From contig NC_089854.1 in the NCBI RefSeq assembly GCF_036373705.1, positions 25,247,225-25,311,224 of the forward strand: a stretch of 64,000 nt of DNA. Reading direction: 5' to 3'. This document shows positions 16,701 to 64,000 of the stretch, one piece after another. Every line of letters begins with the position of its first letter. The first letter of the stretch is position 1. The translations under genes and the position numbers were made by a program. The stretch is from Amia ocellicauda (taxonomy: Eukaryota; Chordata; Actinopteri; Amiiformes; Amiidae). Under the pieces are notes generated by a model. The model saw only the letters and a program-made list of their open reading frames with translations, was not told where the DNA came from and did no database searches.

Positions 16701-19700
16701 TTTGAAATCAGTAAATCAGCACTGAATATTGCCATATTTTAATTTAGTTTTCTAAGACTTGGTTGGCTTTCTGTTGGTTGCTGAAGGTTGAAGTACATGT
16801 TCAGGTATAACTAGAATGAGTGTTTCTGTGGATTTCAGTGGGTCTTTTGTTGTGTACTTGTAAGTGTCTAAGTGTGACGCTGGGCGAGTTACAGCTATGT
16901 GTCTTTTTTGCCTTCCTGTTGCCTGCAGGCTGTTTTCGCAGAGAGTGCTAAAGAGGAAAAGGAAGCCAGTATTTGACATCGCCCGCAATGTGCTGGAGCT
17001 AATCTACGGGCAAACACTTGCCTGGTAAAAACCAAATCAATAATTCTTATTTTTGTCTTTAATATTTTTCATCATTTGCACTCATAGCAGAAGACATTGG
17101 TGCACATAGTGCATTCTTATAAGCTTGAACTATTTATATTACAATTATAGTGTTCTGTAAGTATCTAAATGCTAGGTTATAAGTAGTGCACTTACAGAAC
17201 CTACTGGCTAACTGGCCCAGCTGAACAGTTATCTTATTTGCAGGCATTGCATGGTTGAGGTATTCTCTTTGTTTCTCTTTGCTCAGGCTGGGGGTCCTGT
17301 TTTCTCCATTGCTTCCTGCAATGCAGATTATCAAGCTCTTTCTTTTATTTTATATGAAAGAGGTAAGTAAGAACCTTGACAAACATCTGGCTTCAAGGTT
17401 GTGATGTTTATATTAAACTCTAGAAAAGAGTTAAATCCTGTTCTTGTATTGTAGACTTGAAATGTGTATTTACTCCCGCTGGCTTCTACTTGTATATTTA
17501 CATACACGTTTACACAAACACAGTGAATTTCAATCACTCTGTTAAATTAGTTTTGTTATCCATTGCACTGGAAAGCAAAATTGATCTGCACATGCTATTA
17601 TACTGTCTTTAAGCTAATTTGCTCACGGTTCTCTTGCAGACGAGCCTGATGATGAACTGTCAATCTCCCATCAAGCCCTGGAGGGCCAGTCAGATGACCA
17701 CCATCTTTATCAGCCTGCTGTGTTTCCCCTCTTTCCTGGGGGCAGCTGTGGCTGTCACATTCACCATATGGACGTAAGCCTCTTTCTCACTGCTTCAGCT
17801 CTGACTCCCTGGCTGATAACTCCAACTGATAAATATTTTTTCAAACTTAGAGAGAACTGTTCAAAAGCAAGCATACGGAGAACCAAAAGCTGAAAAGCCC
17901 ATAATTCAGGTCTGATAACAAATAAATCTGACAAAACATCTACATTTGGAGGACTGTTAAACACTCAAATTTCAGAGTTTGATCATGAATAATAACAAAT
18001 TCTAAAAGTAGGATGTGGAACTCGCCACTTTCTGGAGTCTTCTGTTTCAGCTGCATCTGATGAAATTAATCTTGGTCTCTTGGGGTCCCAGGAATTAAAA
18101 AATAACAAAACCTTTAAATTAAAAAATAATTTAAGAAATGCTTTACAACATGTGTTCAAAACTATGTTTTAATAATATGAGAACTTAACCTAGCTTTTAC
18201 TTTTTCATTGAAACCAGCAACAGCTATTTTCCTCTTGTTTCCTGCCATGGTAAAACCATCAATTAGTCAGTACTTACCTGTCCATGTCGCTTGGCTGAGT
18301 AAAGCATTGTACTACCAAACATCACCACTTGGTGTTGTATTTAGTCAGAAAACAGAAAAGTTGCTCAATCCTAGTCTTCCAGGAGAAAGGGGACCATAGA
18401 TTGAACTCTATCTGAGCTTTAAATACACATTTCAATTACGTATGGCCTGATTTAACATAGTCCAATGCCTTACATGTGTTCTCATTTACAAATTATTATA
18501 AACTCGTCTAGATTTCAGGTGTCAATTGCCCGAGTTATGCAACCCAGTCTTCTCCAGTTCTGTCCATTAGGGGAAAGTTTAAATTGATTTGCTCAGATTA
18601 GTCCCCATGGCTACCATAGAAGAGCAAGAGCATTATAAATTGCAGAATTACAGGGATTCTTGCTTATCATATGCATGTATGACTTTTCACACACCACTGA
18701 TTCTTCAGTCTTGAAATACATTTTAAACAATTGCTCTGTCACCATGCGACACTGAATAGTCTAAGCACATTTTATGTACTTGTGTCTGTGACTTTGCAGG
18801 ATCCAGCCTTCTGAGTTGTGTGGGCCTTTCCGGACCCTAAACACCATGTTGGAGGCGGGGAAGAAATGGGTAGAGAAGCTGCAAGATACCAACCTGTCCT
18901 GGCTCTCTTGGATATACAGCTTCCTGGTGGAGAACCCCTTATTCCTGTTTGTTGCAGGGGGGGTCTTCTTGTAAGTAAAGATGGGCAACCATTTCAGCAT
19001 TCACTTCCCTGGGCCTAATTAAGGCAGTGAAGAGGGTGAATGTTGAACATGGTTTTCTCAAGTTTAGGTATTAGATGTCTTTGTCAGACATGTTGTGGAA
19101 GGAAAAAAAAGAATTGAGGGAGGGGTGTAAGATAGTAGACTGATATTAAATAATGATTAGAGGAGTTTCAGCCCCTCCCACTACTGTTCACATTCAGTCA
19201 ATAGCAACACAGTTATGGTAGAGCTTAACAGTTAATATGCAAGTATGTATTGGTGTACAAAATAAAATAAAATAAAAAATCTGTAGTTCCTTAGAATATA
19301 AAACATAACACATAACTGCCAACAAATCTCTAGATATTTAGTTGCATGTAGTGCACCGTTTCTATTAAAGCAGAAGGTTAAACCTAAGCTGTTTTCCTCT
19401 CATGCAGAATTGTAATTTATTTCCACACACAAGTGGTTGATGGCCAAAGGAAAATAATCAGCTTACTACAAGAGCAAATTCAAAATGTAAGTACAACAAC
19501 TTCTATTCTATAAAAGCTAAACCATTTTAAGATGTTTTCACACAACCTGAAATGTGAGCCTGAAAATATGTTAATGAATGTTAATGGGAAATGGATATGA
19601 ATACGCAACTTCAATTGTCCTGCCTTGGATCCGACAGGGTAGCCCATCCTATTATTAATATTTCACAAGGTGTGTCTGACAAGTTTTGAACTCAGTCTCA

Positions 19701-20070
19701 TTTTGTGTGTAATATGTTGACTTCACCTACAGGAAGGCGAGGACAAGAAATTCCTTATCACTAAACTCCAGGCTATCCATGAGCAGAAACGCCCTATTTC
19801 TGGGAGGAGATCAGACATGCGGGGCAGTCAGGTAAGTGTTTGACACATGGAGCAGTTTGACTCATTGCTCAACACTGCCTCACCAAACCAGTATTTGTGA
19901 ATCCATCTGCCAGTTGTATATTTTATATCAAATGTTCTCCTTATCAGAATTGTTTTTTTTAACATATAAAAATATTAATGTCTATATTTAAAGATTTAGA
20001 ATCATTCTTATGTGTGTTTTTCACTTTTGGGTTTACTTGCAATATTTTGTCGTTACAGGATTCTTATTAG
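7720..20070 (+). CDS. tmc6: transmembrane channel-like protein 6 (TMC6/EVER1)
   Basis: Coding exons: 7720-7775, 8894-9021, 9248-9412, 9808-9969, 10820-10928, 11191-11275, 11631-11885, 12055-12251, 12584-12728, 13074-13229, 15295-15473, 15971-16061, 16526-16623, 16929-17024, 17287-17362, 17640-17773, 18800-18970, 19408-19486, 19733-19831 and 20059-20070. They sum to 2493 nt in one frame, giving 830 residues; human TMC6 is about 805. All junctions are GT-AG. The TMC signature [13 protein letters not shown] begins at residue 577. About ten hydrophobic segments fit the TMC/TMEM16-type fold. Four N-glycosylation sequons (N335, N339, N343, N348) lie in the loop after the first membrane segment. N-terminal [12 protein letters not shown] and SAMPSRTIG blocks and the GPFRTL and EGEDK blocks near the C terminus match TMC6 rather than other TMCs. 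In mammals TMC6 is an ER-membrane protein that works with TMC8 and CIB1 and is linked to zinc handling and epidermodysplasia verruciformis. The last exon encodes only three residues and the stop. Confidence 0.95.
13682..13730. repeat. microsatellite (TATG)n/(TTTA)n in tmc6 intron
   Basis: TATG units pass into TTTA units in the large intron between the exons ending at 13229 and starting at 15295. Confidence 0.95.
16084..16210. mobile_element. 127-bp hAT-type MITE in tmc6 intron
   Basis: The element begins CAGGGTTCAGCAAC and ends GTTGCCAACCCCTG, which are imperfect inverted repeats. It is flanked on both sides by the perfect 8-bp direct repeat TTCTAGGG (16076-16083 and 16211-16218). An 8-bp target duplication with CAGGG-type ends is the hallmark of hAT elements. 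It is too short to encode a transposase, so it is non-autonomous. Confidence 0.85.
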
Positions 20071-20706
20071 GAATAAAGGAATACGAATTTCAACTTGATA
20101 TTGCCAAGTAGAAAGCCAAAACCATGAAATGTGAAGTGTACCTTTTAACCCTGAAAAACTGGAAATGATGATTCCCAAGACACTCATGTCAACAATGTGT
20201 CTCCTCAGGATCTTCTCAATTTTCCTGTCACTATAGAGAGTTGTGGGGAGGGGGGAGCTAGGCTGTAAATTAATTAGGGTCCAAACATGTTCAGACATTT
20301 TTTTATTTCAAAAGCTCTCGTCCAAGATGTAATGTTGACAGTGTCACTTAAAGACAAAGATAAAGATGTGTTTCTCCTAATGAAGCACGAGTGAAGAACA
20401 TGTACCTGTATTCTGTAATGTGTCCTGTGCTTGACAGTTTAATTTGTAAAAATGTAAAGGGATATATAGGTATACCACTACTTTCAGAAACCTTTCAGAG
20501 TTTACCATTGTGAAAATACAAGATATGCGTCAGGACATAATACACAGAAAGCCAATTATGGTTTAACCACTGGAAAATGTAAAAGTATTTTAAATATTTT
20601 ACTGTATTTATTTTTCTATTATTTTTTTAAGTCGGGGGCATACTGTAGTATTGTTTATGAGGAACTGACTGTGATGTATAAAATAAAATGCTTTTCCTAT
20701 TCTGTA
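20071..20706 (+). other. tmc6: tmc6 3' UTR with poly(A) signal
   Basis: The untranslated region follows the TAG at 20068-20070. A canonical AATAAA lies at 20682-20687, so cleavage is expected near 20700. The sequence around this UTR recurs at about 28.2-29.4 kb and 49.9-50.6 kb, and marks the duplicated units described elsewhere. Confidence 0.7.
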
Positions 20707-21530
20707 TTTATTGGTTATAGTATTGTTGCACACTTTCCTGGTGAGAGAGGACAGCGGTGTTCCAGTTCATTAACTAAAAATGGATAGACTATATCAAGGT
20801 ACAATTCAGGTACAATTTAAACATTTTGACCAATGTTAATTTAGTAATATTTACATTATGCAGTTTGTATGAGTGAAAACATACTATTGCTGTATTCTTT
20901 ATTTTTCTATTAGCTTTCTCTTTATGTAAGTAACCTAAAATTGGCCACATTATTATTATTAGTCAAGTTCATCCTGATTTACATGCTTAATTCATGCCAT
21001 TGTGGGCCCTTTTACCATACTAGAGAACCTATACTACTGAGAACAAATATATAAAACAAATCCCACAGCTGCAAATATTTGTATGTTTCAATATAAAACT
21101 GTTTCAATATATAAACATTGGCTGTAAGAAATACATTAAATACATGTTGTATTATCTCATTAAGCCTGACACACATTGACATTTTGAATTACAAAATCTT
21201 TCAATGATCACTGAACTACAATACATATTAGACTTACAGAAAATGTAAAGCTCACACTTGTTCTGAAACATTGACCCATATTCTGATGAATAATTAAATG
21301 CAAGATATCTTCAATTATACTCAACCAAAATGCTAGGGGCTGGGGAGCCTTTTATTAAGGAGCCATTTTCTGGAAAGGTAATTTATTTGTACTTTTCCTA
21401 GGAATTTGAAGGTGGCATGTTTGGAGAACATGATTAATCTCACTCTAAACTTCAGTGGCAGACACTTCAATTCTGAAAACATGAAGGCACAGTTAAATGC
21501 AATTGAGAGCTTAAAAATGATTCTTCAAAT
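20707..21530. other. flank downstream of tmc6, shared with two later copies
   Basis: No gene is seen. The segment matches about 28.3-28.98 kb and about 50.56-52.24 kb (apart from a transposon in the latter). Shared landmarks include the GAGAACaTA-GTACTGAGAACAAATATA region and the block around CTAGGGGCTGGGGAGCC. It is part of the tandemly duplicated segment. Confidence 0.7.
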
Positions 21531-23290: not shown

Positions 23291-23299
23291 GAAAAACAT

Positions 23300-25640: not shown

Positions 25641-25654
25641 ATGAAACAATAGAA

Positions 25655-26293: not shown

Positions 26294-26471
26294 TATGTGT
26301 GTGTGTATTATATATATATAAATAATTATACATAATGTTTTTTTTTGGGTATCAGGGTTGAACTATAACAGTACCAAAGCACAGTAAAACTGAGACAGTG
26401 ACCTTGTTTACACACACGTGGAAAACCTTGCAGTTCTTCAAACTACATTTACCCTTTTTTTTTGTATACAG

Positions 26472-27105
26472 GTTACAAAATTGAAGGATTGTAGTGAGCA
26501 GACTCCTATTCTTACACATTTAGAGGACTTCAGGCAAGGAATGACACTGGACTGAAAACAAAGATGACCAGTGGAAAAATTCTTACTGTTACAGCTATGT
26601 GTCCGCTACTTCCAGTACGAAATGAAAAGGAGTTCTCCAATTTATTGTGGAGCTTCACTGTCTTGTGGTAGAGTGGAGACTCAGGTAATGATTACACTGT
26701 CTTTCATTAAGACATGGACTGATGCTGTAGCCAATGGAGTCTCGCATGGTGAAAAAGGTTTCCTAATCATGCTATCTGCATGGCCTATAAAATTAAACAG
26801 GTGGTTCCTAATGAATGGAACCCCCCTGTGAGAAGTGCCATGGGCTATTCAAGAACATTGACTTCCAACCTGCTTACACGGAAAGTGACAAAACACTAGG
26901 CTGGCGTTCTCGTAACTGTGCAGAAACTGAATCTCTCAGCTGCCTCCTGAGTGGAGAAGAGGGGGTATGGAAACAGTTTCATATCTATGTGAAGAACTCG
27001 CATCGGGAACAGGTAGCTATTAACAGGGCAGAGCTTGTAAACTAAGTGAAGAAGAAAGCCCAGTTGCTCAGTTCACAAGGGCTTAAACTCAAACCAGATT
27101 AAATA
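26472..27105 (+). pseudogene. broken last exon of the deaminase-motif gene family (unit 1)
   Basis: This is homologous to the whole last exon of the intact gene at 42422-43132, including its polypyrimidine tract and acceptor (26471/26472). It has an early in-frame TGA after the GMTLD residues, several frameshifts and small deletions, and a stop before the C terminus. The upstream exons are missing. Two motif regions survive: PPCEKCHGLF near 26821-26850 and NCAETESLSCLL near 26918-26950. They align with SPCVKCHRIF and NCAENESLSNLL of the intact copy. It is a pseudogene, but useful evidence that both motifs are conserved in the family. Confidence 0.85.
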
Positions 27106-28150
27106 AAATCAAAGTGCCTTTCAAACTAAGTAATTCAGGCAGATATTTCTGTAAAAAAAAAAAAATACTGACACCAAAAATATTAGATATTTTTGATTTT
27201 ACATAAAACTGACATTCCTGTTAGGACCCAGTATGAATTTGTTAATTAGTCACTTTTGTTTTGAGCTATTTCACTGTGAATATGTTGAAATTGGGTTGTT
27301 GTGATGAGAGGCCCAGGCACAATGAAGATGTGACAATTGATGATCCATTTATTTAAATAAAATCAAAGCAAAAAATATTAAAAACAAAAAAATCATAAGC
27401 TAGTCTCTATAAACTCTATAAGAGAACTTCAACAATTCATATCACTGGGCAGAGTACTGGCATAACCTTTTCTCTCAAATCCCCACTTCAAGTGAGTCCC
27501 ACTCCCTTTTTATACTGAGAATCGTGTTTGGACTAGTCCATATTGCTCTTCCAATTACAATATATGCATATTAAAAAGTTTTAACCACTTAGTACACTAT
27601 TAGAGTATGGCATTAATCATGGTAAGCAAATTCAAAATACATCATTTTCTCTAGTGGAGATCAATACATCTAGCATCTCCCCAGCCCCCCCGTTTTATTC
27701 ACCTTATGTTGATAAGGGCAGCTGTAAGGTCTGAACCTGCAGGTCAAATAAACAGCAGTTCAGGTAAGCAACAAGGGGAAAAAACAGGAGAATGACATGT
27801 TTAAAGCAAAGGTATACTGTAATTACAACTCTAGTTTCATGAATGGCCTTTACATTACCATGCATTTTAGTCCGTAAGTATCTGTTTTTGGAATGGGTTC
27901 ATGAGAGTTCAGAAATGTCCATTTTTTTTAGTGATTCATTGTCTCAACACACATAGATTATGCATAATGCATTACATGAAAGAGGAATAATACCATACAA
28001 TACAATAATACTTTGTCCACCCAAGGTGGAAAATTGTCTTTGGTCTTACTCGATGAAAAACACAACAAAATATAATCCATCCACATACAGATTAATAAAT
28101 ACAATATACGATATGATGATTCCTGAGTCACTGAGCAACTGATGTCGACT
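27106..28150. other. no gene recognised; possible unclassified repeat at 27.3-27.8 kb
   Basis: No exon is visible. The part at about 27300-27560 has the general look of a dispersed repeat, similar in style to the insertion at 22.6 kb, but I cannot classify it. Confidence 0.35.
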
Positions 28151-28154
28151 GTCT

Positions 28155-29460
28155 CATCGGGATCATCCTGATTTTTCTATCACTATAGACAGTGGTGGGG
28201 AGGGGGGGAGCTAGGCTGTAAATTAACCACTGGAAAATTCTAAAATATATGAATAACATTTTACTGTATTTTTCTATTGTTTTTTAAGTCAGGGGCATAC
28301 TGTAGTATTGTTTCTGATGAACTGACTGAATGTTAATTTAGTAATATTTACATTTGTATGTACAGTTTTTATGAGTGAAAAAATACTATTGCTGTATTAT
28401 GTATTTCAGTTAGCCTTCTCTTTATGTAGGTAACCTAAATTTGTTTACTTCTAGTTTTTCCTGTTTTACATGCTAAATCCATACTATTGTGGGCCCTTTT
28501 AGCATGGAGAACATATAGTACTGAGAACAAATATATACAAAACAATTCCCACAGTTGCTGCAATTCTTATGTTTCAATATAAATCTGCTTTAATATAAAC
28601 ATTAGCTGTAAGAATTACATTAAATTATTTTTGTATTATCTCATAAAGCCAGAGTCATTGACATTTTCAATTACAAAATCTTTCAATGATCACTGAACTG
28701 CAATAGAAATTAGACTTAAAGAAAACTTAAAGCTCACACTTTTCTGAAACATTGACTCATAACCTGATGCAGATATTTTGCATTTAATTAAATTGGACTC
28801 AACCCAAATGCTAGGGGCTGGGGAGCCTTTTATTTTTTATTAAGGAGTCGTTTTCTAGAAAGATCATTTGTTTTCAGTTTGCCTAGGGATTTGAAGGTGG
28901 CATGTTTGGAGAACCACTATGCTTAATCTCACTCTGAACTTCAATGGCAGACACTTGAACTCTGAAAACATGAAGGCACAGTTCATATTAAATCATTACA
29001 TTGCATATCATGCAAAAAACAGGAGTCAAATGTGATTGTAGGTGTCTAAACATTTTGACTGATGTTAAATTAGTAATAATCCCACTCCACAGTATATATG
29101 TGGACTCCCAGAAGGGAGAGGACCAAAGGATCCCTATCACTAAACTCCAGGCTATTTACAGGCAGAAACAGCTGATCTGTGGGAGGAGATCTGATGCACA
29201 GGCAGTCAAATTTCAGTCAAATGGAGCTACAATTCATTGTTCCACCCACCCTGAATATAATACCTCTGCCAGACATATCTTGTTTGTTGTTTTAAGTGCT
29301 CTCAGTAAGAAAATTACTTCAATAATTAAAAACTTTAAATTGTGACATGCACCTTTAAATTCTGAATACCTGGAAATACTAGTTTCCAAATGACTCCTGT
29401 TAAACAATGCATATTTTCAAGATGGTCTCCATTTTACAATCACGAAAGAAATGTTACAGA
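28155..29460 (+). pseudogene. rearranged copy of the tmc6 3' end (unit 2)
   Basis: 28155-28985 matches the tmc6 3' UTR and flank (about 20205-21490) with internal deletions. It is followed at 29112-29215 by a degenerate copy of the penultimate coding exon (KGEDQRIPITKLQAIYRQK compared with [19 protein letters not shown]), then more UTR-like sequence to about 29460. The exon therefore lies after the UTR flank, so the order is scrambled relative to the parent. There is no upstream tmc6 sequence and no coding capacity. Confidence 0.8.
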
Positions 29461-30800: not shown

Positions 30801-30825
30801 TATTTATTTATTTATTTATTTATTT
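30801..30825. repeat. (TTTA)n microsatellite
   Basis: About six TTTA units in the first intron of US22-like gene 1. Confidence 0.9.
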
Positions 30826-31728: not shown

Positions 31729-34700
31729 ATGCTTCTGTCAGAATCGAGTTCCCACAATGTTGGTTCCTCTGGGGGGAAGTGGTGAGTATTTACAAAGAGT
31801 TTATCACTTTATTCCTTCATCTAATGTAGAATGTGTTGTCCACTGTAATCTTTCGATGGTAATCCTGCATTAATAGCTTTTGAAGTGAATGTGTTTTTTG
31901 CCACAATATCTTGCAAGTATTGCCCCACCCAGGCACACAGATGTGAAATGCAACTGAAAATCCAGTTTTGAACTAGCCACATCTAATTCTCTTCCTCCTC
32001 AGTTTAAAACCGATTTGATGTGCAGACCCTTCTCCTTTAATAGTTTGTTGGCACCACATTGTACTCATACTTTTTCTAAAGTGCAGGGTCTCTCTCCCTT
32101 CTCAATGTTTTATGTGAAACGTAAGGGAAGAGGGAGCAATGTATTCGGCAAACAAAACCGCAACTCCGGTGTCAACAGCATTGAAGACCCTTTCAAGCCA
32201 CTGGAAGTTTCCAAGTCTCCTGTAAAGAATCTGCAAGATGTACACGCGCTTCGGACTGGAGAGATCACTACGATATTTTAACATCAAACGCGGAAACAGT
32301 GAAGCTCTTGATCTGCTACTCTGGACATGATGTACGAAGGATCTGACACTTATTTCCTTGTCTTGTGAATGTTCGTGTGACATGAACTTCTCGTGAGTTT
32401 GCCGACCACTGGAAGCGGGTGTTGTATTGTGCTGTTTTTATGAACTGAACAAATGATCTTGCTCTGTTTTTTCAAAAATGGAGATGGAATCCCCCTCCCA
32501 CTGAAGCTCGTCCCTAACAGAGCGACGTCAAGCAGGAGACGAGACCTCGTCTGCGGCTGAGTTTGTCCTCCTTTTCCTGGTAATGCCTTCGCATTGATCC
32601 AAGCAGCGCTGAAACACTGTTGTGTGTGTGTTACTTGAGGTGCAGAAAACACTATGGAGAGAAATGCGACTCGTTTATGAGCTCAGATACATTGTTAATG
32701 GATGGTTGTTAGCAGGGATTCAGGACCTGCTGTCGGACTGACGGCAAGAAGACAGAACTGGACGGTAAAAGCGCGTTTGTCAATGTAACTACTGGAAGGA
32801 GTGCAGTTAGCAACACCACATCAGACAAAGTGAACTATTGCAACATTGCCGACAGAGAACTGAATGCTGCTGGAAAAGCAGGATTGCTCCTCTGTATGGG
32901 TAGTGTTCACTAGTCCTAGTGAGTCTTCTGACAGAGTTTAAGGGTAGCTGCTGTGTGGAAACTAAACTGTTCAGGTGATTGTCAGGTACTGGATTTTGGG
33001 TGATGCTTCTGTGCAGGTATTTACTTATGAATGGCATATTTATTTTAAATGTATTTATGCATTGTTTTTTGCATGTGTAAAAGTAATTTGTATAGTTATT
33101 TAAAAGTTAAAATGGTAACAATTTTAATCTTTCAGGTCAAAAAATAACAGGAATGGCAACATTAATCACTATGAAATAAAGGATTGTGTTGAGGACTTCT
33201 GCAGTCTTACAATCTGTGAGTATTTTTCTATTTGAACTCAGATTTATTTAACTGTTTTGGATTAATATTACTTTGTTAATGCACAGTCTCAGCACTGCCT
33301 ACTTTAAAAAAGTGAATTGTACTTGTACATGGCTATAGGCCTAATCATAAGCATAAATAATCCTGCCACATAAAAAATGAAAAAGATGTGTAGGAAATTG
33401 GTAAATTATTTTTATTTTTTTAATCTATTTAAATTATTTTAGTTTTGATTTCACCGAATGTGGAGAAATATCACAATTATCTTCTAGTTCACAATTGGTC
33501 TTCTATTGCATCTCAAACCTATGAAAACAGAAACATAGAAAATAAAGTTTGCAATGATCTAAACAAATGTTGACATAATTAAGCTACTTTTATACGAGTG
33601 TGTAGCCATCGAATTGTAGAGGCTGCTGTCTCATTCAGCATGATTTACTCATTGTGATCTGTGTTCACAGCCAGCGAATACCTGGAGAAACTCCTTAAAT
33701 TGGTGGAGAAGCACAGACATAAGAAAGTACCTGTAGGTGGCCCAAGGGGGTCCGATCTGACAATTGGTGGACTTGAAGACACAGTGCTATGTGGGAGAAA
33801 AGAGATGATTGAGGCCTGGGAGGAGCTGTACCTCCCTGAGAGCGAGAAGATGGTTGTTATTGGAAATATTGAGAACTTCCCCAGCTTAGCTGAGGGGCTG
33901 CAGTTGATCATTGTTGTCGACAGCAAGGGCAATGTCTACGCTTATGAAAACGAGGTGTTACATCATGTGTCTACCAGTGTGAAGGACTTCTTCAAATCGA
34001 GAGGCTTGTATCCTCCAATCAGAAGCTACAGAAAGGGAGAATCCATTGAGCCAATGGTAAGGCAGGTGCCATATCTTGTCCATGTGTAAATCACTACTTC
34101 AGGTTTAAAAAAAAAAAAAAAAAAAAAAACGCCAGGCTTAAAAGCCAGAATGTATCTTAAAAAATATATGTATATCATGTGACGTAATTATGTATCAGGT
34201 TGGCTTTCATATATATTTTAACCTTTAGCTGAATTAGTTGAGCAATTCCTCACTTCTCCATCTATCAGCGGCTTGTACAAATGGCTGCCCATGTCAGCTT
34301 GGTGAGAGGTGCATTCAGTGATGGATGAAGTGAGCAAACATCTACCAGTGAGGGAGTTTGGGAAAGGAGGAGCCAGAGCTCAAATAAGGATGACAATAAC
34401 TACATAAACACAAGGGATTGTTATTATTTTCAGAATTAGTCCATTGCAGTCCAGTTCATGGCTTTAATTGAATTTGTTGTTCTGAAAGGATTGTGTGTTT
34501 TATGAAGATAAACTTGAGTTTGAACTGTGCATGCTTGATTTGAGCTACTTTCCAAAATACTTTGTTTGGTTGCTTGAAACTACTGGGTATTTTTCCATTA
34601 ACAAATTGTGTTCTCCTCAAAGACGGAAGAGGAATACCTGGAATTCCAGAAGGATCCGGAGATTCAGGAAATCCAGAGACGTACCCGGGAATTCATAGAG

Positions 34701-34748
34701 AGTAAACAGAAAGACTTTGAGGAAATGCTTGCCTACTTTGAGAGATGA
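31729..34748 (+). CDS. US22/SUKH-like protein, copy 1 (unit 2)
   Basis: Coding exons 31729-31781, 33136-33215, 33671-34056 and 34623-34748 (645 nt, 214 residues). The start exon begins at about 31617 and has no earlier ATG. Residues 1-44 are poorly conserved. The core (47-170) contains W94, ELYLPESEKMVVIG (96-109), SLAEGLQL (116-123), VDSKGNVYAYEN (127-138), HH (142-143), VKDFF (148-152) and PPIRSYRKGE (159-168). A charged, probably helical tail follows. I see no signal peptide or membrane segment. The VVIG strand, a hydrophobic strand ending in D-x-x-G-N-V-Y-A-Y, and a following helix with FF resemble the US22 motif, which is placed in the SUKH (SMI1/KNR4-like) superfamily. That superfamily includes bacterial immunity proteins against nuclease and deaminase toxins, and viral and animal members. 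The gene is secure because its paralogue keeps every splice phase and the total length. The domain name is an inference. It lies upstream of, and in the same direction as, the PCxxC/NCAE gene. Confidence 0.8.
34107..34129. repeat. poly(A) run in last intron of US22-like gene 1
   Basis: A run of about 23 A residues. A similar A run lies at the corresponding place in copy 2 (about 56491-56510). Confidence 0.9.

Positions 34749-35092: not shown

Positions 35093-35189
<97 letters not shown>
35093..35189. repeat. (TG)n(TA)n microsatellite
   Basis: TG units, then a long TA tract, then a short AC tract. The open frame through it is low-complexity only and is not a gene. Confidence 0.95.
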
Positions 35190-39828: not shown

Positions 39829-42800
39829 ATGGACAGTGTGAGTACCACTGCTTTTGTATGAAACAATGAATTCTTTATTACCAGGAAGTTGTATTTGCAC
39901 CAGTGCTTCATTATTAGTACATTCTTTTCTTATGTATGTAGTCTGTGCATTTCCAGCACGAAAATTGGTGCTTACAAATAACATACACATATTTTCCATT
40001 AATATGTTCAGGAAAAATAATCCAACAGTGGAAATATGGGATATCAATATTTTAAAAATCATCAAATCGATGGCTTTTGATTTGATTGAATTATATGAAA
40101 TGTGTGGATCATGTTGATTGAATACATACATTGTTTAAACTTCAAATCAAGCAAAAGGCAATGGTATAAATCTTTAAAGAGAGGGAGAAAACAAAACAAA
40201 ACAAAACAAAATGATGAATTCAGGTCAGCCCTGCCGCGCAGTTACTCTGGAATAGTCTGGTTGCATTTCCACTGCAGGGTTTGAGCCACTGAGTGACACA
40301 TCTCACATCGCCTGAAATAAACATGGTAACCAGTTTTAAAATCATCACACATTCTTTTGTGAGCCTCGTCCCGTCTGAATGCCTGTGAAGGTCCACATGA
40401 AAGCTAAACCCTAGATTTCCTTACCATTTTGTGCCTTTACTAATTTATCCTCCAACATGTAGCAAAGTGTTGTGTATGACTTAAATGTCTTTAAATGTAA
40501 ATATGAAATGTACTGGTGCAGGGTAGTATGTTGTGAAGCCGAACTTTCCGTTTGGTTTTTTACTTGCCACTTTAAAATCATTGGTGACTTTGACATACCT
40601 GCTGAAAAAAGTATTACCTGATAGAGGTAACAGCAGCATTAGACAAAACTGACATAGACAAGAAAACATCCCAATATGTCAAATTAGAAAGACAAGAGGT
40701 AAATGAAACAGATTCTGAATGAAAGAACATGGTTTTATTGTGGACTAATTTAAAGACTCTTCGCCCTCTTGAAAAACCCATATATTTTATATCATGTTTT
40801 TATTTTTTCTGAAATAGAATCACCATGCAGCTGATGTCACCCCCCATGTGAGGTAATTACTGCATTCTTCACATTTCAGTGACACTGGAAATGGCCACCA
40901 AGACCAATTATCATTATTATTATTATTGTTTTAAATCTATGAATTAAAGGCTTGAATTGTTATAGAATGTAAACCTTCTAAACTTGTCTCATTGTTCAAC
41001 ACATGGGCATTCCAGGACACACTGTTGAAGACTTATGTCTGCCAATGTATGTTTAGAATAATACATTTTGATTCCTTAATTAATTAAAATCTACAATTTA
41101 GTTTGGGCATTTCTTTCTTTGTCTCTAAGTAAGAGTTTTACACATACACCCCTATCAAAATCTGAGGCAGCTCAAACATTCATCTTAAACTGATGTGATT
41201 TGGTGGTTGTTTCAGATCAAACATACAGAGGAGAAAGAAACTTAATCACAAGGATAAAGAACTAATCAAGAAAAAACTGGTGAAGAGTGGAACTGTTTTT
41301 ATCATCGAATTCTTTAAGCAGTGGAAAGCATTTAAGGAAAAAAAACCAAATGTGACAAACGCATATTTCGTTGAGGTAAAACTAGTCTTCCTGTCCATTA
41401 ACAAAAAATGTTGCTTGTTGTTCTGTCTGTGGGAGAGCAAACAGTTTAAACACAGTCTATCATTTGAAAGCAGAGAGAAACATTTACATTTATAGCAGAT
41501 TATTAAAGATAACTTGCATGAGGAGATGCAAGATTGTTTTTTAACAAAAGAGGGTCTTTCATATATTTACTTTTATTGAACTGCTGATTGTGCAGTCCTG
41601 CCTCAGGAAACATATGCATAATAAAAGAATGATCATGAAGTTGTTGATTACACTATAATGACAGAAGTGCCACGCCCTTCAAACAAAGGTTTGTGACAGT
41701 TCCTAGTCATGAACAAAAAATAATAAAACCAAAATTGGCGTCTGTACACCACATATTACCTGCCATCCCAGAAACTATGCTCACCCTCGTAAAAGTGTAC
41801 ACCACACTAATCAGATGCAGAATATGTTAACGAGGATTCTGGGCCCATTCTTGCATAATCTAGTCATGTGATGCCCTTAAAAGTATGCATACGCCAGCAA
41901 ATATATATATATATATATATATTTTTTTATTAATGCTTACTCAACTTGCATGTCCTCCTTGGAGCAGGTCCTTCATTGCATATTCTTTCTGGGTTACATT
42001 CATGAGAGGCAAGATAAAAAGAAGCCAATTGAACCACGGGAGTTCTTCTCCTCTGATGGAATATATGAGAGGTTTCAGAAGCTATTCCCTCAGGCTTTCG
42101 AGCAGTACCGCACTCATTGGCCAACCCGGACACCCTTTTCCATTCTCCTGGATTTGGTGAGTGCCTGAAAACACATCCAACCTCCACAACAACACAAACT
42201 TTTAAAAGTATTCATTGATGTCTTGAAAACTACAATGAACTGCATTGCTACTGAGAGGGTCTAAATTATTGTCAGGAGCCACTTTCTACTGCCAATAAAT
42301 GAAGATGTCATAGGATACAGGTTTGTAATTGGCAATGTACGGGTAGGACACAATTTGTGTCACAAACTCACAATAGCAGTGTTTCGGTTCAACTGCATTT
42401 ACCTTTTTTTTTGGAAAACAGGTTACAAAATGGAAGGGCTGTAGTAACCACACTGCTATCCTGAAGCATTTAGAGGACATCAGGAAAGGAATGGTGGTGG
42501 ACAAAAACAAAGATGACCAGTGTGAAAATAATTACTGTTTAGTGGCAAGTGTTATCAGTGTCTGCTACTTCCAGGAAGACATGAAAAGGAGTTCTCCAAT
42601 TTATTATGGAGCTTCGCTGTCTTGTAGTGGTAGAGTGGAGACTCAGGTAATGATTACGCTGTCTTGCATTAAGACCTGGAATGATGCTGTAGCCCATGCG
42701 GTCTGGCATGGTAAAAGTGGAAATATCATTAGGCTTCCCAACGGTGTGATCTGTATGGCCTATAAAATGAAATTACCACGTGGTTCCTACTTGGAGGAAT

Positions 42801-43132
42801 CGCCCTGTGTGAAGTGCCATAGGATATTCCAGAACATTGACTTCATACCTGTGTACACGGAAAGTGACAAAACGCAAGACTGGCATTATGGGAACTGTGC
42901 CGAAAATGAGTCTCTGAGCAACCTCCTGAATGGAGAGGAGAGGGTCAGGAATGAAACGGTTGCATACCGTCATTATGAAGAACAGGACAGTCACTCACTT
43001 CAGGAACAGGTACCTCTTGACAGAGCAGAGATTGTAAACCAAGCGAAGAAGAAAGCAGCCCAGTTGCTCAATTCACGAGGGTTTAAAATCAAAGATGATG
43101 AAATAGAATCAAAGTTCTTCCATCCAAACTAA
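39829..43132 (+). CDS. deaminase-motif protein with PCxxC and NCAE, copy 1 (unit 2)
   Basis: Coding exons 39829-39837, 40818-40852, 41216-41375, 41968-42156 and 42422-43132 (1104 nt, 367 residues). The first exon codes only for MDS. Upstream ATGs in that exon meet stops or leave frame, and the chosen ATG has G at -3 and +4. Residues 1-68 are basic. Residues 69-131 hold a conserved block (VLHCIFFLGYI ... THWPTRTPFSILLDL), shared with copy 2 in the same exon order. Residues 185-300 contain KRSSPIYYGASLSC, then SPCVKC (C260, C263), then YGNCAENESL (C290, A291, E292). PCxxC plus C/H-A-E are the zinc-ligand and catalytic-glutamate signatures of the deaminase fold, but there CAE normally comes first. 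The order here suggests a permuted relative or a different zinc domain. No membrane segment is clear. Gene confidence is high because copies exist in all three units; the function is not established. Confidence 0.8.
41900..41930. repeat. (AT)n run before an acceptor
   Basis: A short AT microsatellite followed by a T run, in the intron before the exon at 41968. Confidence 0.9.
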
Positions 43133-43699
43133 GTATTTTTTCAGAAAAGTATCTGCCTGAATTACTGACACATAAAATGTTTGATCATTTTGAATTTACA
43201 CAAAACAGTGACATTCCTGTTTATGACCAGGTAACAATGTCCAATAGAGTGCCTTTACCAAAGACTTCAGAGCTGTTTTTAGAGAGACATACGTGTCAGA
43301 GAAACATATTTGACTAAAAGCCATGGTGTAACTATACAGTACATTGTGACATTTTTGCTATGTTTGTATGTGGAAACCAAAAAAAATACTTTACTTGGGA
43401 CTTTGAAACTAAATAGTAAAACTTTATACAAAGAAGCATTATAATCTTGTCATTGTTTTTTTTTCCTTGCATAGGAAATAAGGTGTTGGAAGTTTTTATT
43501 TTTATTTTGTGTGATATAGTGCATTTCCATGTCAAGTCTACAGAAATGAATACATTGACAAAGAATTTCAGTGTGTATCAGTGTGAGTGGTCTTGAAAAA
43601 AGTTTAACTAGTTAAAATCAATATGGGAGTTTTTATCTAATTCATATGTTTTTCAATTCTAGAATAAAATAAAGCACATCAGGGTATTAGTTAAATGCA

Positions 43700-43751
<52 letters not shown>

Positions 43752-49361: not shown

Positions 49362-52240
49362 AATTGTAATTTATGTGCACGTGCAAGTGGTTGATAGCCA
49401 AAGGAACAAAAAGAACTTGCTACAAGAACAAATTCAAAATGTAAGTAGAACAACTGCTATTTTGAGTCTGATTCTATAACAGCTGTAGCATTTTAAGATG
49501 TTTGACACAACCTGAAATATACAAGCCTGAAAATATGCTCATGAATCCAGTCTATGAATACGCCACTTCAATTGTTCTGTGTTGAATCCAACAGGGTTGC
49601 CCATCTTTTTATTAATATCATAAGGTGTGTATGACTAGTTTTGAGTCTCATTTTGTGTGTAACATGTTGACTTCACATGCAGGAGGGTGAGGACAAGAAA
49701 TTCCTTTTCAGTAAACTCCAGGCTATCCATGAGCAGAAACGCCCTATTTCTGGGAGGCGATCAGACATGCAGGGCAGTCAGGTAAGTGTTTGACACATGG
49801 AGCAGTTTAACCAGAATCCATCTGCCAGATGTATCTTTTATATGTTTTATCAAATGTTTTCTTTATCAGAATTGTTTTTTTGACATATGGAAATATGTAT
49901 TTGCCAATATGTAATGATTTAGAATCATTCTTATGTGTGTTTTTCACTTTTGGGTTTACTTGCAAATATTTTGTCTTGTCAAGATTCTTATTAGGAATAA
50001 CTTGATGCTGCCAAGTAGAAAAACAAAACCATGAAATGTGAAGTGTACATTTTAACCCTGAAAAAATACAAATGTAGGTTGCTAAGTCACTCATGTCAAC
50101 AATCTGGAACAATCTTTTCCTGTCACTATAGACAGTGGTGTGGAGGGGGGATCTAGGCCCTGATCCAAGATGTAATGTTGACAGTGTCACTTAAAGATAA
50201 AGATGTGCTTCTCCTAATGAAGCACGAGTGAAGAACATGTACCTGTATTCTGTAATTTGTTCTTTGTGTCCTGTGCTAGAGAGTTTAATTTGTAAAAGTG
50301 TAAAGGGATATATAGGTATACCACTATTTTCAGAAACCTTCTAGAGTTTACCATTGTGAAAATACAAGATATGCGTCAGGACATAATACACAGAAAGACA
50401 ATTATGGTTTAACCACTGGAAAATTTTAAAGTATTTTAAGTATTTTACTGTATTTATTTCTCTATTGTTTTTAAGTCAGGGGAATACTGTAGTATTGTTT
50501 CTGAGGAACTGACTGTGATATGTAAAATTAAATGCTTTACTTCATCTGTGTTTGTGGGTTATAGTATTGTTGCACACTTTCCTGGTGAGAAAGGACAGCT
50601 GCATTCCAGTTCATCAACTAAAATGCTCTAGACTATATCAAGGTACAATACAGAGACTTCAAGAGTCAAAATGGATTATAAAACCTAAGAGTAGTTGTTG
50701 AAATATTTTGACCAATATTCACATTTAGTAATATTTGCATTTTTATGTACAGTTTATATGAGTGAAAACATACTATTGCTGTATTATGTATTTTGGTTAG
50801 CCTTCTCTTTATGTAGGTAACCTAAAATAGGTTACTTACATTATTATTATTCTAGTTCTTCCTGGTGTACATGCTAAATCCATGCCATTGTGGGCCCTTT
50901 TACCATAATGGAGAACATACACCGATCAGCCATAACATTATGACCACCTGCCTAATAATGTGTAGGTCCCCCTTTTGCCACCAAAACAGCCCTGACCCGT
51001 TGAGCCATGGACTCCACTAGACCTTTGATTGTGTGCTGTGGTATCTGGCACCAAGACGTTAGCAGCAGATCCTTTAAGTCCTGTAAGTTGCGAGGTGGGG
51101 CCTCCGTGGATCGGACTTGTTTGTCCAGCACATCCCACAGATGCTCGATTGGATTGAGATCTGGGGAATTTGGAGGCCAAGTCAACACCCTGAACTCGTG
51201 ATTCATCAGACCAGGCCACCTTCTTCCATTGCTCCGTGGTCCAGTTCTGATGCTCACGTGCCCATTGTAGGCACTTTCGGCAGTGGACAGGGGTCAGCGT
51301 GGGCACCCTGACTGGTTGCGGCTACGCAGCCCCATACGCAACAAACTGCGATGCACTGTGTGTTCTGACACCTTTCTATCAGAACCAGCATTCACTTTAT
51401 CAGCAAATTGAGCTACAGTATCTCGTCTGTTGGATCGGACCACACGGGCCAGCCTTCACTCCCCACGTGCATCAGTGAACCTTGGCCGCCCATGACCCTG
51501 TTGCCGGTTCACTGCTTTTCCTTCCTTGGACCACTTTTGATAGGTACTGACCACTGCAGACCGGGAACACCCCACAAGAGCTGCAGGTTTGGAGATGCTC
51601 TGACCCAGTCGTCTAGCCATCACAATTTGGCCCTTGTCAAAGTCGCTCAGATCCTTACGCTTGCCCATTTTTCCTGCTTCTAACACATCAACTTTGTGGA
51701 CAAAATGTTCACTTGCTGCCTAATATGCTGACAGGTGCCATGATAATGAGATTATCAGTGTTATTCACTTCACCTGTCAGTGGTCATAATGTTATGGCTG
51801 ATCGGTGTGTAGTACTAAGAACAAATATATATAAAAACAATTCCCACAGCTGCTACAATTCTTATATTTCAATATAAATCTGCTTTAATATAAACATTAG
51901 CTGTAAGAAATACATTACATTAATTTTGTATTGTCTTAAAAAGCCTGATTCATATTAACATTTTCAATTACAAAATCTTTCAATGATTCTTGATGTGCAA
52001 TAGAAATTAGACTTACGGAAAACTTAAAGCTGACACTTTTCTGAAACATTGACCCATAACCTGATGCAGATATTTTGCATTTAATGATTAAATTGGACTC
52101 AAACCAAATGCTAGGGGCTGGGGAGAATTTTATTAAGCAGTTGTTTTCTGGAAAGGTAATTTGTTTTCACTTTTCCTAGGGATTTGAAGGTGGCATGTTT
52201 GGAGAACTACTATGATTAATCTCACCCTGAACTTCACTAA
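49362..52240 (+). pseudogene. copy of the tmc6 3' end (unit 3)
   Basis: 49362-49440 copies the third-last coding exon (IVIYVHVQVVD, QEQIQN) and 49683-49781 the penultimate exon ([19 protein letters not shown]). Both are open and keep their splice sites. The last acceptor has changed (CGTTACAG to CTTGTCAAG), shifting the frame. The 3' UTR and flank follow to 52240 in the parental order, split by a Tc1-like element at 50920-51809. No upstream tmc6 exon exists here, so it cannot make TMC6. Compared with unit 2 it is the less degraded copy. Confidence 0.85.
50920..51809 (-). mobile_element. Tc1-like DNA transposon, internally deleted
   Basis: About 890 bp with long inverted repeats (ACCGATCAGCCATAACATTA at the left, its reverse complement at the right). 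On the minus strand the transposase N terminus is readable ([18 protein letters not shown] from about 51655), then KCLQWAREHQNWTTEQWKKV with WSDES near 51270-51190. Next comes LNPIEHLWDVLDKQVR and a C terminus ending near 50952. The segment between WSDES and the NP block is deleted, and frames differ between parts, so it is non-autonomous. It sits in tmc6-flank sequence whose uninterrupted counterparts are in units 1 and 2. Confidence 0.9.
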
Positions 52241-54913: not shown

Positions 54914-54949
54914 GAGGAGGCACAAGACAGGTTCGTGCTGGCACAGGAA

Positions 54950-56756
54950 ATGCTTGATCATATCAAATATAGCACTGACAGTTCTTTCTTTAACAACAAA
55001 CCAAATGGGTAAGTTTTAACCCTCATCCTCAATAATTAAAATTACCTTTGACTCTTTAAATTATGTAACTGATAAAAAGTTGACTCCTAAGAAGTTAATT
55101 ATACAATTTTTCAATTAATTTAAAACCCCTACTGTTAAAATAATTAAAAGGCTTTGATTTAGGAAAATACTAGTTTATTAGAGCTCGGTTGGAACAAAAA
55201 CCAGCAGGGTAGGTGGTACTCCAGGACAGGTTTGAGAACCACTGACATATGGCATTGGATACATATGTCAATCATATTGTCTTTAAGTACACAACATACA
55301 CTTATTCATACAGTATAAGATAAATTACCTTTCCAGTCTCTACACAGGATGACAAAATGTTAAATGATAATTAAAAAAAACTTACAATGAATACTTTAAA
55401 TCAGAGTGCACTCTGACTAATATAGTCAAAATGAGGACCTCTTCGTCAGCTTTAAATATAAAATTACTTTGTATTTTCTAGGGAAGCAAGGATTTTCAAA
55501 AGCCAAAAATATGAACCTGCTGTGCAGAAATGCATTGATGACTTCTGCAAGCCAGTAAAATGTAAGTAATTTATACATTTCTTTGAAATGAAGACATCTA
55601 TGATTTAAATAGTATATTCATATATTTGTTTTTTGTAAAACTAAATCAGTTTTACTCATTCTCATTCACTGCCCAACCACTTTAGAACACTACCCCAGAC
55701 TGCCCAAGCAAGATGATGGCCAACATTATAATATAGTCTGACTTGTCAAAGGGAGCTGCTCTCTTCCTGTCAAAATATTGCACACTGTCACTAATCTGGT
55801 CCTTTACATATTATATATAAAGTAAGAAGTGCTGCGTACATGTGAGATTTCAGTGCTTTAACTGTTATTTATATCCTTGGAGCAAATTTTATATGTGAGG
55901 TAAAAGACTGCTACAAACTTTGAATAATGGTATATGAGTTTATGCATTATGCAGTTTATGCACTTTTTTAAAAGTAATAATTTACTAAGATTTTCTATTT
56001 TTTTGTGTTTATTTTTTCTTTAGCTCAGGCACATTTAGAGGACCTCGTAAAGAAACATAACAAAATACAAGTGCCTCTAGAGTGTCCAGAAGGGGTTTAT
56101 TTGAGAATTACTGCGCAAGATGGCACTATCTACTGGGGAAGAAAAGACATGCTTGATAGCTGGCAAGAGCTGTACCTGCCTGACAGTGAGAAGATGGTTG
56201 TTATTGGTGCTGTTGACAACATGCACAGCTTGGCTGAGGGGCTGCAGTTGGTTATAATGGTTGACCGCAAGGGCAACGTGTACGCCTATGAGAATCATGT
56301 TCTACACCATATGGCAAGAAGTGTGCAGACCTTCTTCAAGAAAGGAGCTTCATTTCCCCCAATCAAAAGCTACATGTACGGAGAATACACAAAGCCTGAG
56401 GTAAGATGATCCACATTATGGAATGTGTGCATGTAAATTGGAAAAAATTTAAAGATTAAAGAAAACTGTCAAAAATGTTTTTGTAAAAGTTAAAAAAAAA
56501 AAAAAAAAAACCTGCATTAAACTTTTTTTCTTGTTTACTGTCCATTACATATCATGTACTGTTAAAATCAGTAACAATAGTCAATTATATTTTTACTGTA
56601 TGCTTCTTTATTTTATTGGTTTTCTAGACGGAAGAAGAATACTTGCAAATCCTGAAAGACGAAGGAATTCCAAAAATAAATGAACATACTCGGAAATTTG
56701 TAGAAAACAGTGGAAAAGATATGACCGAGCTGCTGGACTTCTTAGATAACCTTTAG
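54950..56756 (+). CDS. US22/SUKH-like protein, copy 2 (unit 3)
   Basis: Coding exons 54950-55008, 55482-55561, 56024-56400 and 56628-56756 (645 nt, 214 residues, the same total as copy 1). The core shares with copy 1 GRKxM (85-89), W93, ELYLPDSEKMVVIG (95-108), SLAEGLQL (115-122), VDRKGNVYAYEN (126-137), HH (141-142), FF and PPIKSY. The N-terminal 46 residues differ strongly between copies, except for a DDFCK/EDFCS block just before the core. The C-terminal exon starts TEEEYL in both. As in copy 1, the block around D-x-K-G-N-V-Y-A-Y resembles US22/SUKH proteins; this is a reading by eye. No signal peptide or membrane segment is seen. The PCxxC/NCAE family gene 2 lies downstream in the same direction, repeating the gene order of unit 2. 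Intact frames after divergence suggest selection on both copies. Confidence 0.8.
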
Positions 56757-57233
56757 GTCTGTTATGGTTGCCATCTGTGTTTTCCCTGTGTCTGCATTTC
56801 TGAAGTGATTGCTGAAATTAATTTTCTCAGGGTTTTAACACAGGGTTTTTTTAGGCATTACTACAACCACCAACTGAAAGGTCAAACATTCAGATTGAAA
56901 TCATAAATGTATCCAGTCATGTAACATAAAGCATCTGCACTACCAAAATGTATATAAATTGCATTGATACAGAAACTAGTCTACAGACATGCATAACACA
57001 TGAAGCACTAAACATTATAATAATCTGAGCAGAAAAGTGTTTATACATGTATATATGCTACTATACATCTGAAAAACTGTGAAGTAACTTAAAATACAGT
57101 GGTTTATAGCAACATAACTAAAAGCCACAGCCAGGAGTGTATAATTATAATTAAAACATAAAACAACAATGCAGAAATACAGAAATGTGGCTATTTGGGT
57201 ATATCCGGATTATGCTAAATTATTCAGATGTAA

Positions 57234-58461: not shown

Positions 58462-58469
58462 AGATGTAA

Positions 58470-60700: not shown

Positions 60701-60719
60701 ACGTACACTTCTATCCTCA

Positions 60720-61126
60720 CTCAGAGCAGTTTCAGTGCAGGGAGCGGTGAGGGAGGGAAGAAGAGGGCTTTTGCCAGAGGATTCAAAGTGATTGAAAGTA
60801 AGCCTTGTACACTGAGTGAGGAGGAGGAGGAGGAGAATATAGACGGAACAGACGTGTAGAGGAGGACCGAGTTTGGATCTGGTTGAGCCAAAAACGGAGG
60901 TGATCCGGGGTGGGCGGAGAAAAATGTGGAAGTAGCACAGTCGACAGACAGAAAAATAAAATACACACCCAGGTTTTACGGTAAAGACCTGCTTATTCTG
61001 GAACTACTCAATTAGGATCAACATATAAGTGTGTTCCTCCAATGTTCAATGAAAGGCACCAACACCCACACTAGGCATCACTCAGAAATCCTGCTCGCCA
61101 ACATTGTTGTCTCGACTTTACTGCAG
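60720..61126 (+). promoter_or_regulatory. promoter and noncoding first exon of PCxxC/NCAE gene 2
   Basis: A purine-rich stretch with (GGA)n at about 60818-60836 is followed by a CGGAGG and GGGTGGGCGG patch, the latter a GC-box-like site near 60909-60917. A candidate exon ends TTTACTGCAG with donor GTACAG at 61126/61127. The exon start is not defined. Confidence 0.45.
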
Positions 61127-61877
61127 GTACAGGTCAACATTTCAACATTTGTCTTTTTCAATACAGTATAGGTTTTGTCACTTGGCGTTATGACATTGGT
61201 AGCTATGAATATGAAATTGTATCGCTGGTGTTCATATACTATATAATACGTATTTGAAAACCCTCATAAACATGTTTAGCATATGCACTTGTGTTTTTCT
61301 TTTTTCTTAATTCTTGAACATGTGTTTTCTTTACATTGAATTTTAGGTTCCGTTACGAAAGCAGTCAGTGTTGAATGAATGGTCATATTTGTATGTAACG
61401 AGCCACTCCCAGATTTACGGAATCGAAACTTAAATTGTTTAGTTTCGTTGTTGTCTAATTACACAGGTATACACCCAAGCAAAGCAAACTGATTTTTGAA
61501 TTACTGTTATATGTAGGCTATGGTGAATTTGTGTTTATGAACGCGCCAGGAGATACTATAAGGTATATACTAATATACATACAAAACCAAGAATTTAATA
61601 AGTTATATTTTTGAATAAGTGATTTGTCATATAACATCGTTCAATTAACAGTACGTAGAGGGGAACATTTCAAATTACACTCTTTGTAACCTCGTAATTG
61701 AATAATTAGATTATAATTCTAAATTACAATTTCATTTGAACAGACAAGTAAATGTAGACAACATTTTCATCTCAACTCTAAAACGGAATCCAGATTTGTC
61801 CTGTTCTTCTGTTTGCCTTTGAAGATTATTTGTGTATTTTATTACAGCCGGAAAACGTGGTTTCGGTTACCAATACA

Positions 61878-63767
61878 ATGTATGGAAAAGGTATGTTTTC
61901 AATAATTAATATCTGGTTCATATTATTGTTTTATTAATGGTTTTGCTTTTTCAAACAAACAGCAGTTTCTAATCAATGAGGGCAAAACAAATTGAATGAA
62001 TGTAAAAAGATCAGCTCAATATTGAAAACAGTAAACCGGTGGTCGTTCCTTCAATAATCATGTCAAACAATAAGCATGTTGCAAGCAAATAATTTTCTGT
62101 TAATGAGTCCTATGACTTTTGAAACACTCTTTATTCTCTGCTGCTTTTGACATGAGTGTAGACAAAGCTCAATACTATGTATTTGTATACAGTATACAGT
62201 AGAATGCAGTATGTGTTTTTTATAAATACATATATAAATATTACATTTCAGGTCCAATGAAGGATAAAAGGTAATCATTTTATTCCACGTTTTAACTGCA
62301 TGATCAATACCAAAGTTGATGCATTTGTTCTTAACCCCGGGGCTTGGAGGGCGATTATCTGCAAAATATCTTCATTGGTTACTTGACTTGAATTTTCTCC
62401 TCTTTTTTGTGTGCTCAAAAATGTCACGGTAAACCCCTTTTTTCGTATAGTGTTTATGGATATATGTCTCTTGCTGATAAATAAATAATTCCCATGCATT
62501 TAGAATGACTTATCTTTCATATTTTGTGATATTCTAATGGGATACATTAGAGGAATGGAAGCACTCACTCTTTTCCCTTTCTGTGTCTTCTGTACCATCA
62601 AACACCTCATTCTTTTGAGTAATGTCTTAATGTTTTACTGCTGGTGGCTTTACCTTTACATGGACCCCTGGACTGATTCAATATATATTGTTTTTAACTG
62701 ACGAAGTAGAGGAATTCATGCTACTTGAGACTGAGACCAGTCATGCAGCCACTAGTTAGACAACCAGGTAACAATTATGCCAAAATGGGCCAAGAAGAAA
62801 TCTTTGTCTCAGGGCTGTGTGTTTTGTTTGTTTTATTTAGTCAAAGTGGTAAAAGGACATTTATCAAGACTGACACCTTTAGAACGCAGAATCTTGTGAA
62901 GAGCAGCTGTGCATTTGTTGAAGTGGCCCTGAAATACATTTACTCCGCTGTACAAGAAAAAAGGCTCTCCAGTGATAAAGCAAAGAGCTACATAAAGGAG
63001 GTTAGCAGTTGCTTTATATACTTATATACACATACTGTACATATACAATTACATTTAGCTTTTCCATCCAACTATAGCATAAGTTATGAATGTAATATTG
63101 CATTTTTTGTGCCTGCAATATTGCTTGTTATTTTGCATGTTTAGCGTTTGTATTTCCAACCCTTAATATGTTTCTCATCAATAATCCAGTTTATGCAATT
63201 GCTAATAAAAGACAATACTGTTTATAGAATCAAATACAATTAAAATCAATGCAAGTCTTCCTTCCACCATTAAATACCTATTTGTGCTTTATTTGTATTT
63301 AATTTTGAATCTATGGTTTGAGTTTAAGTGTTGTTGTTTTTTAGTTTAGCAACTAGGGGGAAATTATGTGCTCTATTTATTTATATTATATTTACACATG
63401 GAAATATGTTTTGTATTTTTATTTTCCATTCAACAGATTCTACACACTATTTTGTTTCTTGGATATATTGACTTTCCTTCAGTTGAGTACAATGAGGTTT
63501 TGCCTAAACAACTCATATCTGTTGTAACAAGAAATTATGAAGATGTCCTTCAAAATTACAAAAGCCATCTACCCACAAGACCACCTTACTCAGTACTGTT
63601 GGATGTGGTAGGTTTAAAAACACATTTGTGAAAAATACATGGTTGTGAATTCTTAAGATTTACTGGTGAAAAGACATCACATTTAAAAGCTCAACAAGTC
63701 TTAATTTTATTCAGCTGTTCAAAGGATGTTTTAGGAACCTTCGTAGAATTATGAAGACAGTGGACAG
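61878..63767 (+). CDS. deaminase-motif family protein, copy 2, 5' part (unit 3, runs off window)
   Basis: Coding exons 61878-61890, 62252-62270 (19 nt), 62841-63000, 63437-63607 and 63715-63767. The gene continues past the window end. The third exon is 160 nt with the same phases as in copy 1 (41216-41375). The fourth encodes ILHTILFLGYID and SHLPTRPPYSVLLDV, matching VLHCIFFLGYI and THWPTRTPFSILLDL of copy 1. The fifth encodes LFKGCFRNLRRIMKTVDR and ends at a donor (63767/63768), whereas copy 1 has no intron at that place. The PCxxC and NCAE region would lie beyond the window, so I cannot say whether it is intact. The visible exons have no stops or frameshifts. The first 68 or so residues are lysine-rich and diverged from copy 1. 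It follows US22-like gene 2 in the same orientation. Confidence 0.75.
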
Positions 63768-64000
63768 GTATGAATTATGCTACATACAATATCTGCCCAT
63801 CTTATTTTAGGAGTTGGTGTTTTTGATATGTTATTCTTGTGCATAATATCTGAAGATATTGGAATTAGTTTTTCTCATATGTAATCATTAAAACTACAGT
63901 ACTATTTTAAAGGATGTCAACTATAAATTCACTGAAACTCATTAAAGCTGATATTTCTGAAAAAGTCCTGTTGATTCTCAGTGTAAAGTGTACTGCTATT

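Follow-up and report, generated by a model that had tools for sequence, protein, structure and literature searches.

Tandem copies of a two-gene module pairing a US22-family gene with a putative deaminase-like gene on a bowfin chromosome

We analysed a stretch of 64,000 nucleotides from the bowfin Amia ocellicauda (C5:25247225-25311224), referred to as the window, in whose coordinates positions are given unless stated otherwise. The locus consists of tandem copies of a module of two genes, which we call family A and family B. Family A encodes a US22-family protein, putatively of the SUKH type, with a putative binding function. Family B encodes a putative zinc-dependent, nucleic-acid or nucleotide deaminase-like protein whose motifs stand in swapped order. 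We give about even odds (roughly 50%) to the reading that the deaminase-like B is restrained by the US22/SUKH-type A and has foreign or viral nucleic acid as its likeliest class of target. A preliminary description of this DNA had proposed an inhibitor-effector or defence pair. The gene structure, the duplication, the family assignment of A, the conservation of residues in B and linkage in several fishes lend that proposal partial support, while binding between A and B and a role in defence would follow by analogy. As the family B protein of the second unit is 100% identical to Amia ocellicauda LOC136749914, the locus belongs to the bowfin host chromosome.

The window holds three units, all on the + strand. 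Their components are a last-exon copy from a TMC gene, an upstream repeat common to all three, and the genes of families A and B. The same order and direction had been described for all three. The number and the strand were confirmed, while unit 2 has its TMC remnant (29109) 3′ of the upstream repeat (28329-28983), the reverse of units 1 and 3. In unit 1 no coding match to family A was found and family B is represented by a broken last exon only (26441-27222, + strand), which is 76% identical in DNA to 42391-43221 and carries stops in all three frames as well as frame changes. This agrees with the earlier view that the first unit is reduced to its ends. Likewise, two units were said to keep both genes open as far as the window shows, and we found A of units 2 and 3 without stops and B of unit 2 intact. 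Some 60 kb further downstream, beyond the window, a fourth unit is a copy of unit 2: the segment 28365-49111 and its downstream copy (87803-109223 in window-based coordinates) are 98-99.7% identical over about 20 kb, and a comparison of 1,576 bases in five coding exons of A and B showed one difference. Unit 4 may have arisen by a recent duplication, or the assembly may present two haplotypes as separate copies, and such a near-identical copy was therefore rejected as proof of a functional repeat.

The family A gene of unit 2 (LOC136749913, 214 residues) spans 31729-34748 on the + strand, with exons at 31729-31782, ~33138-33215, ~33664-34057 and 34623-34748 that match the public protein P0039 exon by exon. 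That of unit 3 (LOC136749910, 214 residues) spans 54950-56756 on the + strand, with exons at 54950-55009, ~55483-55560, 56023-56403 and 56628-56756, and matches P0042. Thus, both genes have four exons without stops and correspond to 214-residue public Amia proteins. The US22 domain (PF02393) was detected with expectation values (E) of 4.7e-24 in unit 2, on exon 3, and 1.2e-26 in unit 3. The scores of 85.3 and 93.7 bits exceed the Pfam gathering score of 35 bits, which bears out the US22-like, 214-residue protein of the preliminary description. US22 proteins are known mainly from herpesviruses and other viruses, whereas family A is made up of host genes arrayed in tandem in a bony fish. A PDB sequence-profile search with A returned five matches with E of 0.25-4.5, none of them SUKH by name, and Foldseek against the PDB gave no match below E 0.2.

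Family B of unit 2 (LOC136749914, 367 residues; 40818-43132, + strand) matches P0001 exon by exon, with exons at 40818-40853, ~41214-41375, 41968-42156 and 42422-43132; the first codons were not located. The final exon of 711 bases carries both motifs, PCxxC at 42803-42817 (residues 259-263) and CAE at 42896-42904 (residues 290-292), both on the + strand and both placed by residue conservation. Unit 3 harbours a second subfamily of B (62895-64000, + strand, start approximate), about 27-30% identical to B of unit 2. Its exon at 63437-63607 lies within the window, a further exon is suggested near 62.9 kb, where the sequence resembles the next B copy (181 bases, 74%), and the last exon, which lies past the window end (C5:25311285 onward), is open with PPCQKC and GNCAEC motifs. 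A second copy of this subfamily lies beyond the window (C5:25319568-25320230), again with an open last exon and both PPCQKC and GNCAEC. The ratio of nonsynonymous to synonymous substitution (dN/dS) is 0.53-0.61 between the two copies of the second subfamily and 0.38-0.39 between B of unit 2 and a B copy at 27.8 Mb. For A of unit 2 against unit 3, dN is 0.32 and dS 0.98. These values mark A and B as constrained yet fast-changing genes.

Searches for family B gave 38 and 75 matches, or 77 distinct proteins, of which 75 were aligned (P0038 and P0094 were left out). The homologues come from bowfin, gar, sturgeons, paddlefish, catfishes, characins, cyprinoids, salmonids, eel, bonefish and spiny-rayed fishes and, outside fishes, from a frog (Leptodactylus) and birds (ostrich, duck). 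At each motif column 5 of the 75 aligned sequences have a gap. Among the homologues that have the column, C290 and E292 are invariant (70 of 70), and C260 and C263 are kept by 68 and 69 of the 70, respectively. The putative zinc and catalytic residues within the motifs reported earlier (PCxxC ... NCAE) are thus conserved. In P0001 PCxxC precedes CAE, and this order is kept throughout a 35-sequence alignment. In known deaminases CxE or HxE precedes PCxxC, and family B does not follow that order (C/H-x-E before PCxxC); we know of no deaminase with PCxxC before CxE. We considered and rejected a canonical deaminase whose glutamate would be residue 204, which lies in the domain's first helix; this column holds Glu in 24 and Ala in 31 of the 75 sequences. 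One long homologue, P0086 of Poecilia mexicana (655 residues), has a repeat-like middle region between the N-terminal half and the motif half, and four further Poecilia records (P0087-P0090) are similar to it.

Family B combines an all-helical N-terminal half with a C-terminal alpha/beta domain in which PCxxC is followed by CAE. In a structural search deaminases filled nine of the top ten rows, with blasticidin-S and cytidine deaminases as the best; these enzymes have a zinc site of the C-x-E and C-x-x-C type. Foldseek with B against the PDB and against viral models gave nothing below E 0.2 and no deaminase in the PDB, while giant-virus CMP/dCMP deaminases occupied ranks 13-14 (E about 2). Two cuts of B in native order scored 13.6-13.7 bits against YwqJ-deaminase (PF14431), and with the motif blocks swapped the same cuts scored 17.8 and 18.8 bits, still under the gathering score of 25.9. 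With the blocks in either order YwqJ was the profile touched by most B members, and the match did not improve when the first beta hairpin of B was placed ahead of the swapped blocks (5 of 14 members, best E 0.0024). A scan of 35 members in native order hit 19 Pfam families with one to three members each (best E 0.0025, DNA_pol_phi), YwqJ not among them. Across Pfam, PHROGs and NCBIfam, the only deaminase family that native-order B matched was a dCMP deaminase of PHROGs, hit by 1 of 35 members with E 0.16, and NCBIfam gave no deaminase with the blocks in either order. PDB profile searches with B, and with the hairpin plus the swapped blocks, returned no match. When bacterial and viral contigs were searched for relatives of whole B or of its motif part, pattern matches were obtained, none of which was confirmed by tblastn. 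The block-swapped B also gave one weak match to APOBEC_N (E 0.046, 1 of 14 members). The AID/APOBEC deaminases carry PCxxC, a catalytic Glu and HxE, whereas family B has the reversed motif order, CxE rather than HxE, and no Pfam membership. Fold and profile link family B weakly to deaminases, and B may bind zinc and catalyse the deamination of a nucleic acid or nucleotide.

To assess whether A and B stay together, linkage was read from shared contigs and names; one chromosome-sized contig does not amount to adjacency, and LOC numbers are a hint only. On this basis A and B were linked in 6 of the 12 species with A. They share a contig in Amia (LOC136749913/914), Acipenser ruthenus (contig 10,204,494), Polyodon (contigs 30,713,753 and 31,174,239) and Xyrauchen (LOC127631413/414, contig 38,304,500), and they occur in one gene model, A then B, in Acnodon (P0038) and A. 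sinensis (P0065), probably as read-through annotations. Four of the 12 (two Megalops, Paramormyrops and Arapaima) had A with no B among the matches, and Lepisosteus was left uncounted, as its A comes without a contig. Conversely, most species with B had no A among the matches of a search that reaches only relatives sharing short words. On the question, raised by the preliminary description, of whether the families are unlinked in other fishes, the outcome is mixed, with linkage in half of these species and different contigs in A. oxyrinchus.

Within the bowfin genome, the matches listed for US22 number six: units 2, 3 and 4, C5:24.996 Mb (stops in the last exon), C20 (one stop) and C5:27.784 Mb (frame shifted). 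Family B was matched in units 1-4, in the two second-subfamily copies, at 27.814 Mb, and on C18 and C6, where the pieces are broken. The B copy at C5:27.814 Mb (LOC136749974) is intact and lies about 30 kb past the broken A on the same strand, a further A-then-B arrangement. Pairs with both genes intact were found only in the cluster of the window, in genome searches run without a second-subfamily B query.

In the razorback sucker Xyrauchen texanus, A (P0053) and B (P0019, P0077) lie on one contig and group with sturgeon proteins. P0019 and A. ruthenus P0014 share 82% identity, and the best paddlefish match to P0019 reaches 61%. A tree built from 40 of the 75 B sequences places both sucker B proteins with A. 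ruthenus and A. sinensis (support 100/99), and P0053 is 83% identical to A. oxyrinchus and 71-75% to Polyodon. A different contig of this species carries a B of the usual cypriniform type (P0070). This sturgeon-like pair, which stands nearer to sturgeons than the genes of paddlefish do, may reflect a transfer of the pair, or else contamination or misassembly.

The arrangement has a parallel in bacteria. According to PMC3482391, SUKH proteins are immunity partners of the deaminase families YwqJ, XOO2897 and BURPS668_1122, and at least 14 polymorphic-toxin domains occur in animals, a subset of which is thought to act in antiviral defence and apoptosis. As in the bacterial pair of SUKH and a YwqJ-type toxin described there, a US22/SUKH-type protein stands beside one that carries CxE and CxxC motifs of the deaminase kind. 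The bowfin genes differ in being intron-bearing, chromosomal and vertebrate; family B also differs in its reversed motif order, its conserved helical N-terminal half and a YwqJ match below the cut-off. The A-B layout suggests that this vertebrate module is related to the toxin-immunity pairs of bacteria. By analogy, B would deaminate nucleic acid or a nucleotide, its likeliest class of target being foreign or viral nucleic acid, and A would bind B and keep it in check, as proposed for SUKH proteins and toxin deaminases in bacteria. We propose that A and B would remain neighbours because an unpaired B harms the cell. Literature searches, which did not cover two Nucleic Acids Research (NAR) papers of 2011 on the deaminase fold and on SUKH, the likeliest places for a mention, found no paper on family B or the A-B pair.

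Other explanations have to be weighed against a restrained deaminase. B might not be an enzyme at all: the cysteines of PCxxC and CAE would then form a structural zinc site in a scaffold or nucleic-acid binder, and A would be an independent US22 adaptor. Among solved structures, profiles of the motif blocks do hit zinc fingers and zinc ribbons first (Kaiso, eS31), at chance level (E 0.3-1.3); the canonical motif order is lost, and the PDB yields no deaminase by Foldseek. However, the invariant E292 is unexpected, as a structural zinc site needs no Glu, and neither the deaminases heading the structural search nor the fact that both halves of B touch one deaminase profile fits a non-enzyme, which we regard as rather unlikely. 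Slightly more plausible, though still on the unlikely side, is that history alone ties A and B, with tandem duplication beside the TMC gene followed by drift of functionally unrelated products. The recent duplication carried some 20 kb of unit 2 entire, A at 25.0 Mb and the B pieces on C18 and C6 are solitary, and a third of the fishes with A had no B among the matches. Against this, bowfin units 2, 3 and 4 agree in gene order and strand with one another and with the 27.8 Mb locus, where A is broken, and single gene models of a characin and a sturgeon also run from A to B.

Two further possibilities involve viral US22 proteins. A could be the host counterpart of viral US22 antagonists, tuning an antiviral B and being mimicked by viral US22 proteins. 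Herpesviruses encode US22 proteins, as does, judging from profiles, an axolotl coronavirus, and PMC11065284 describes these proteins as countering host antiviral responses. Yet a single scan of viral contigs with family A gave 32 pattern matches, none confirmed as a relative by tblastn, and we consider such mimicry improbable. Not quite as improbable, but well short of likely, is a broader scenario in which bony vertebrates inherited a toxin-immunity-like module of a swapped-motif deaminase (by circular permutation or segment swap) and a US22/SUKH inhibitor. Kept for innate defence, the cassette would have been lost or amplified by lineage and moved between fishes as a pair, the sturgeon-like set of the razorback sucker being the case in point, with viral US22 proteins as counter-defence copies of A.

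The remaining features of the window, all on the + strand, belong to the flanking gene and the repeat. Exons of the TMC family (PF07810 at C5:25263750-25263857 and 25264500-25264592) lie at 16526-17368 in the flanking host gene, upstream of the units. Its native 3′ coding exons in unit 1 (19433-19840, as 19433-19510 and 19721-19840) were recognized by exon peptides that recur in unit 3 and, judging from their position, are probably part of the TMC gene. Remnants were found in unit 2 (29109-29204, 59% identity, E 8e-9) and unit 3 (49387-49790, as 49387-49458 with 71% and 49671-49790 with 90%), and a further last-exon copy lies beyond the window end at 88521 in window-based coordinates. Pfam supports the family; the name tmc6 is a label of the preliminary description. 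The repeat upstream of A is present at 20832-21494 in unit 1 (81% identical to 28329-28983, its part 21032-21454 82% identical to 51810-52236), at 28329-28983 in unit 2 and at 51810-52236 in unit 3, the latter two recognized by similarity to the other copies. Overall, the three copies are 81-89% identical to each other.

If the restrained-deaminase reading is true, family B would be an unnamed vertebrate deaminase family that, if vertically inherited, arose before ray-finned fishes and tetrapods diverged. Its partner would be a SUKH-type protein, an arrangement also seen in conflict systems of bacteria, and viral US22 proteins would gain a concrete host counterpart. Family B would also add a new scaffold to the few mutator or editing enzymes of vertebrates.
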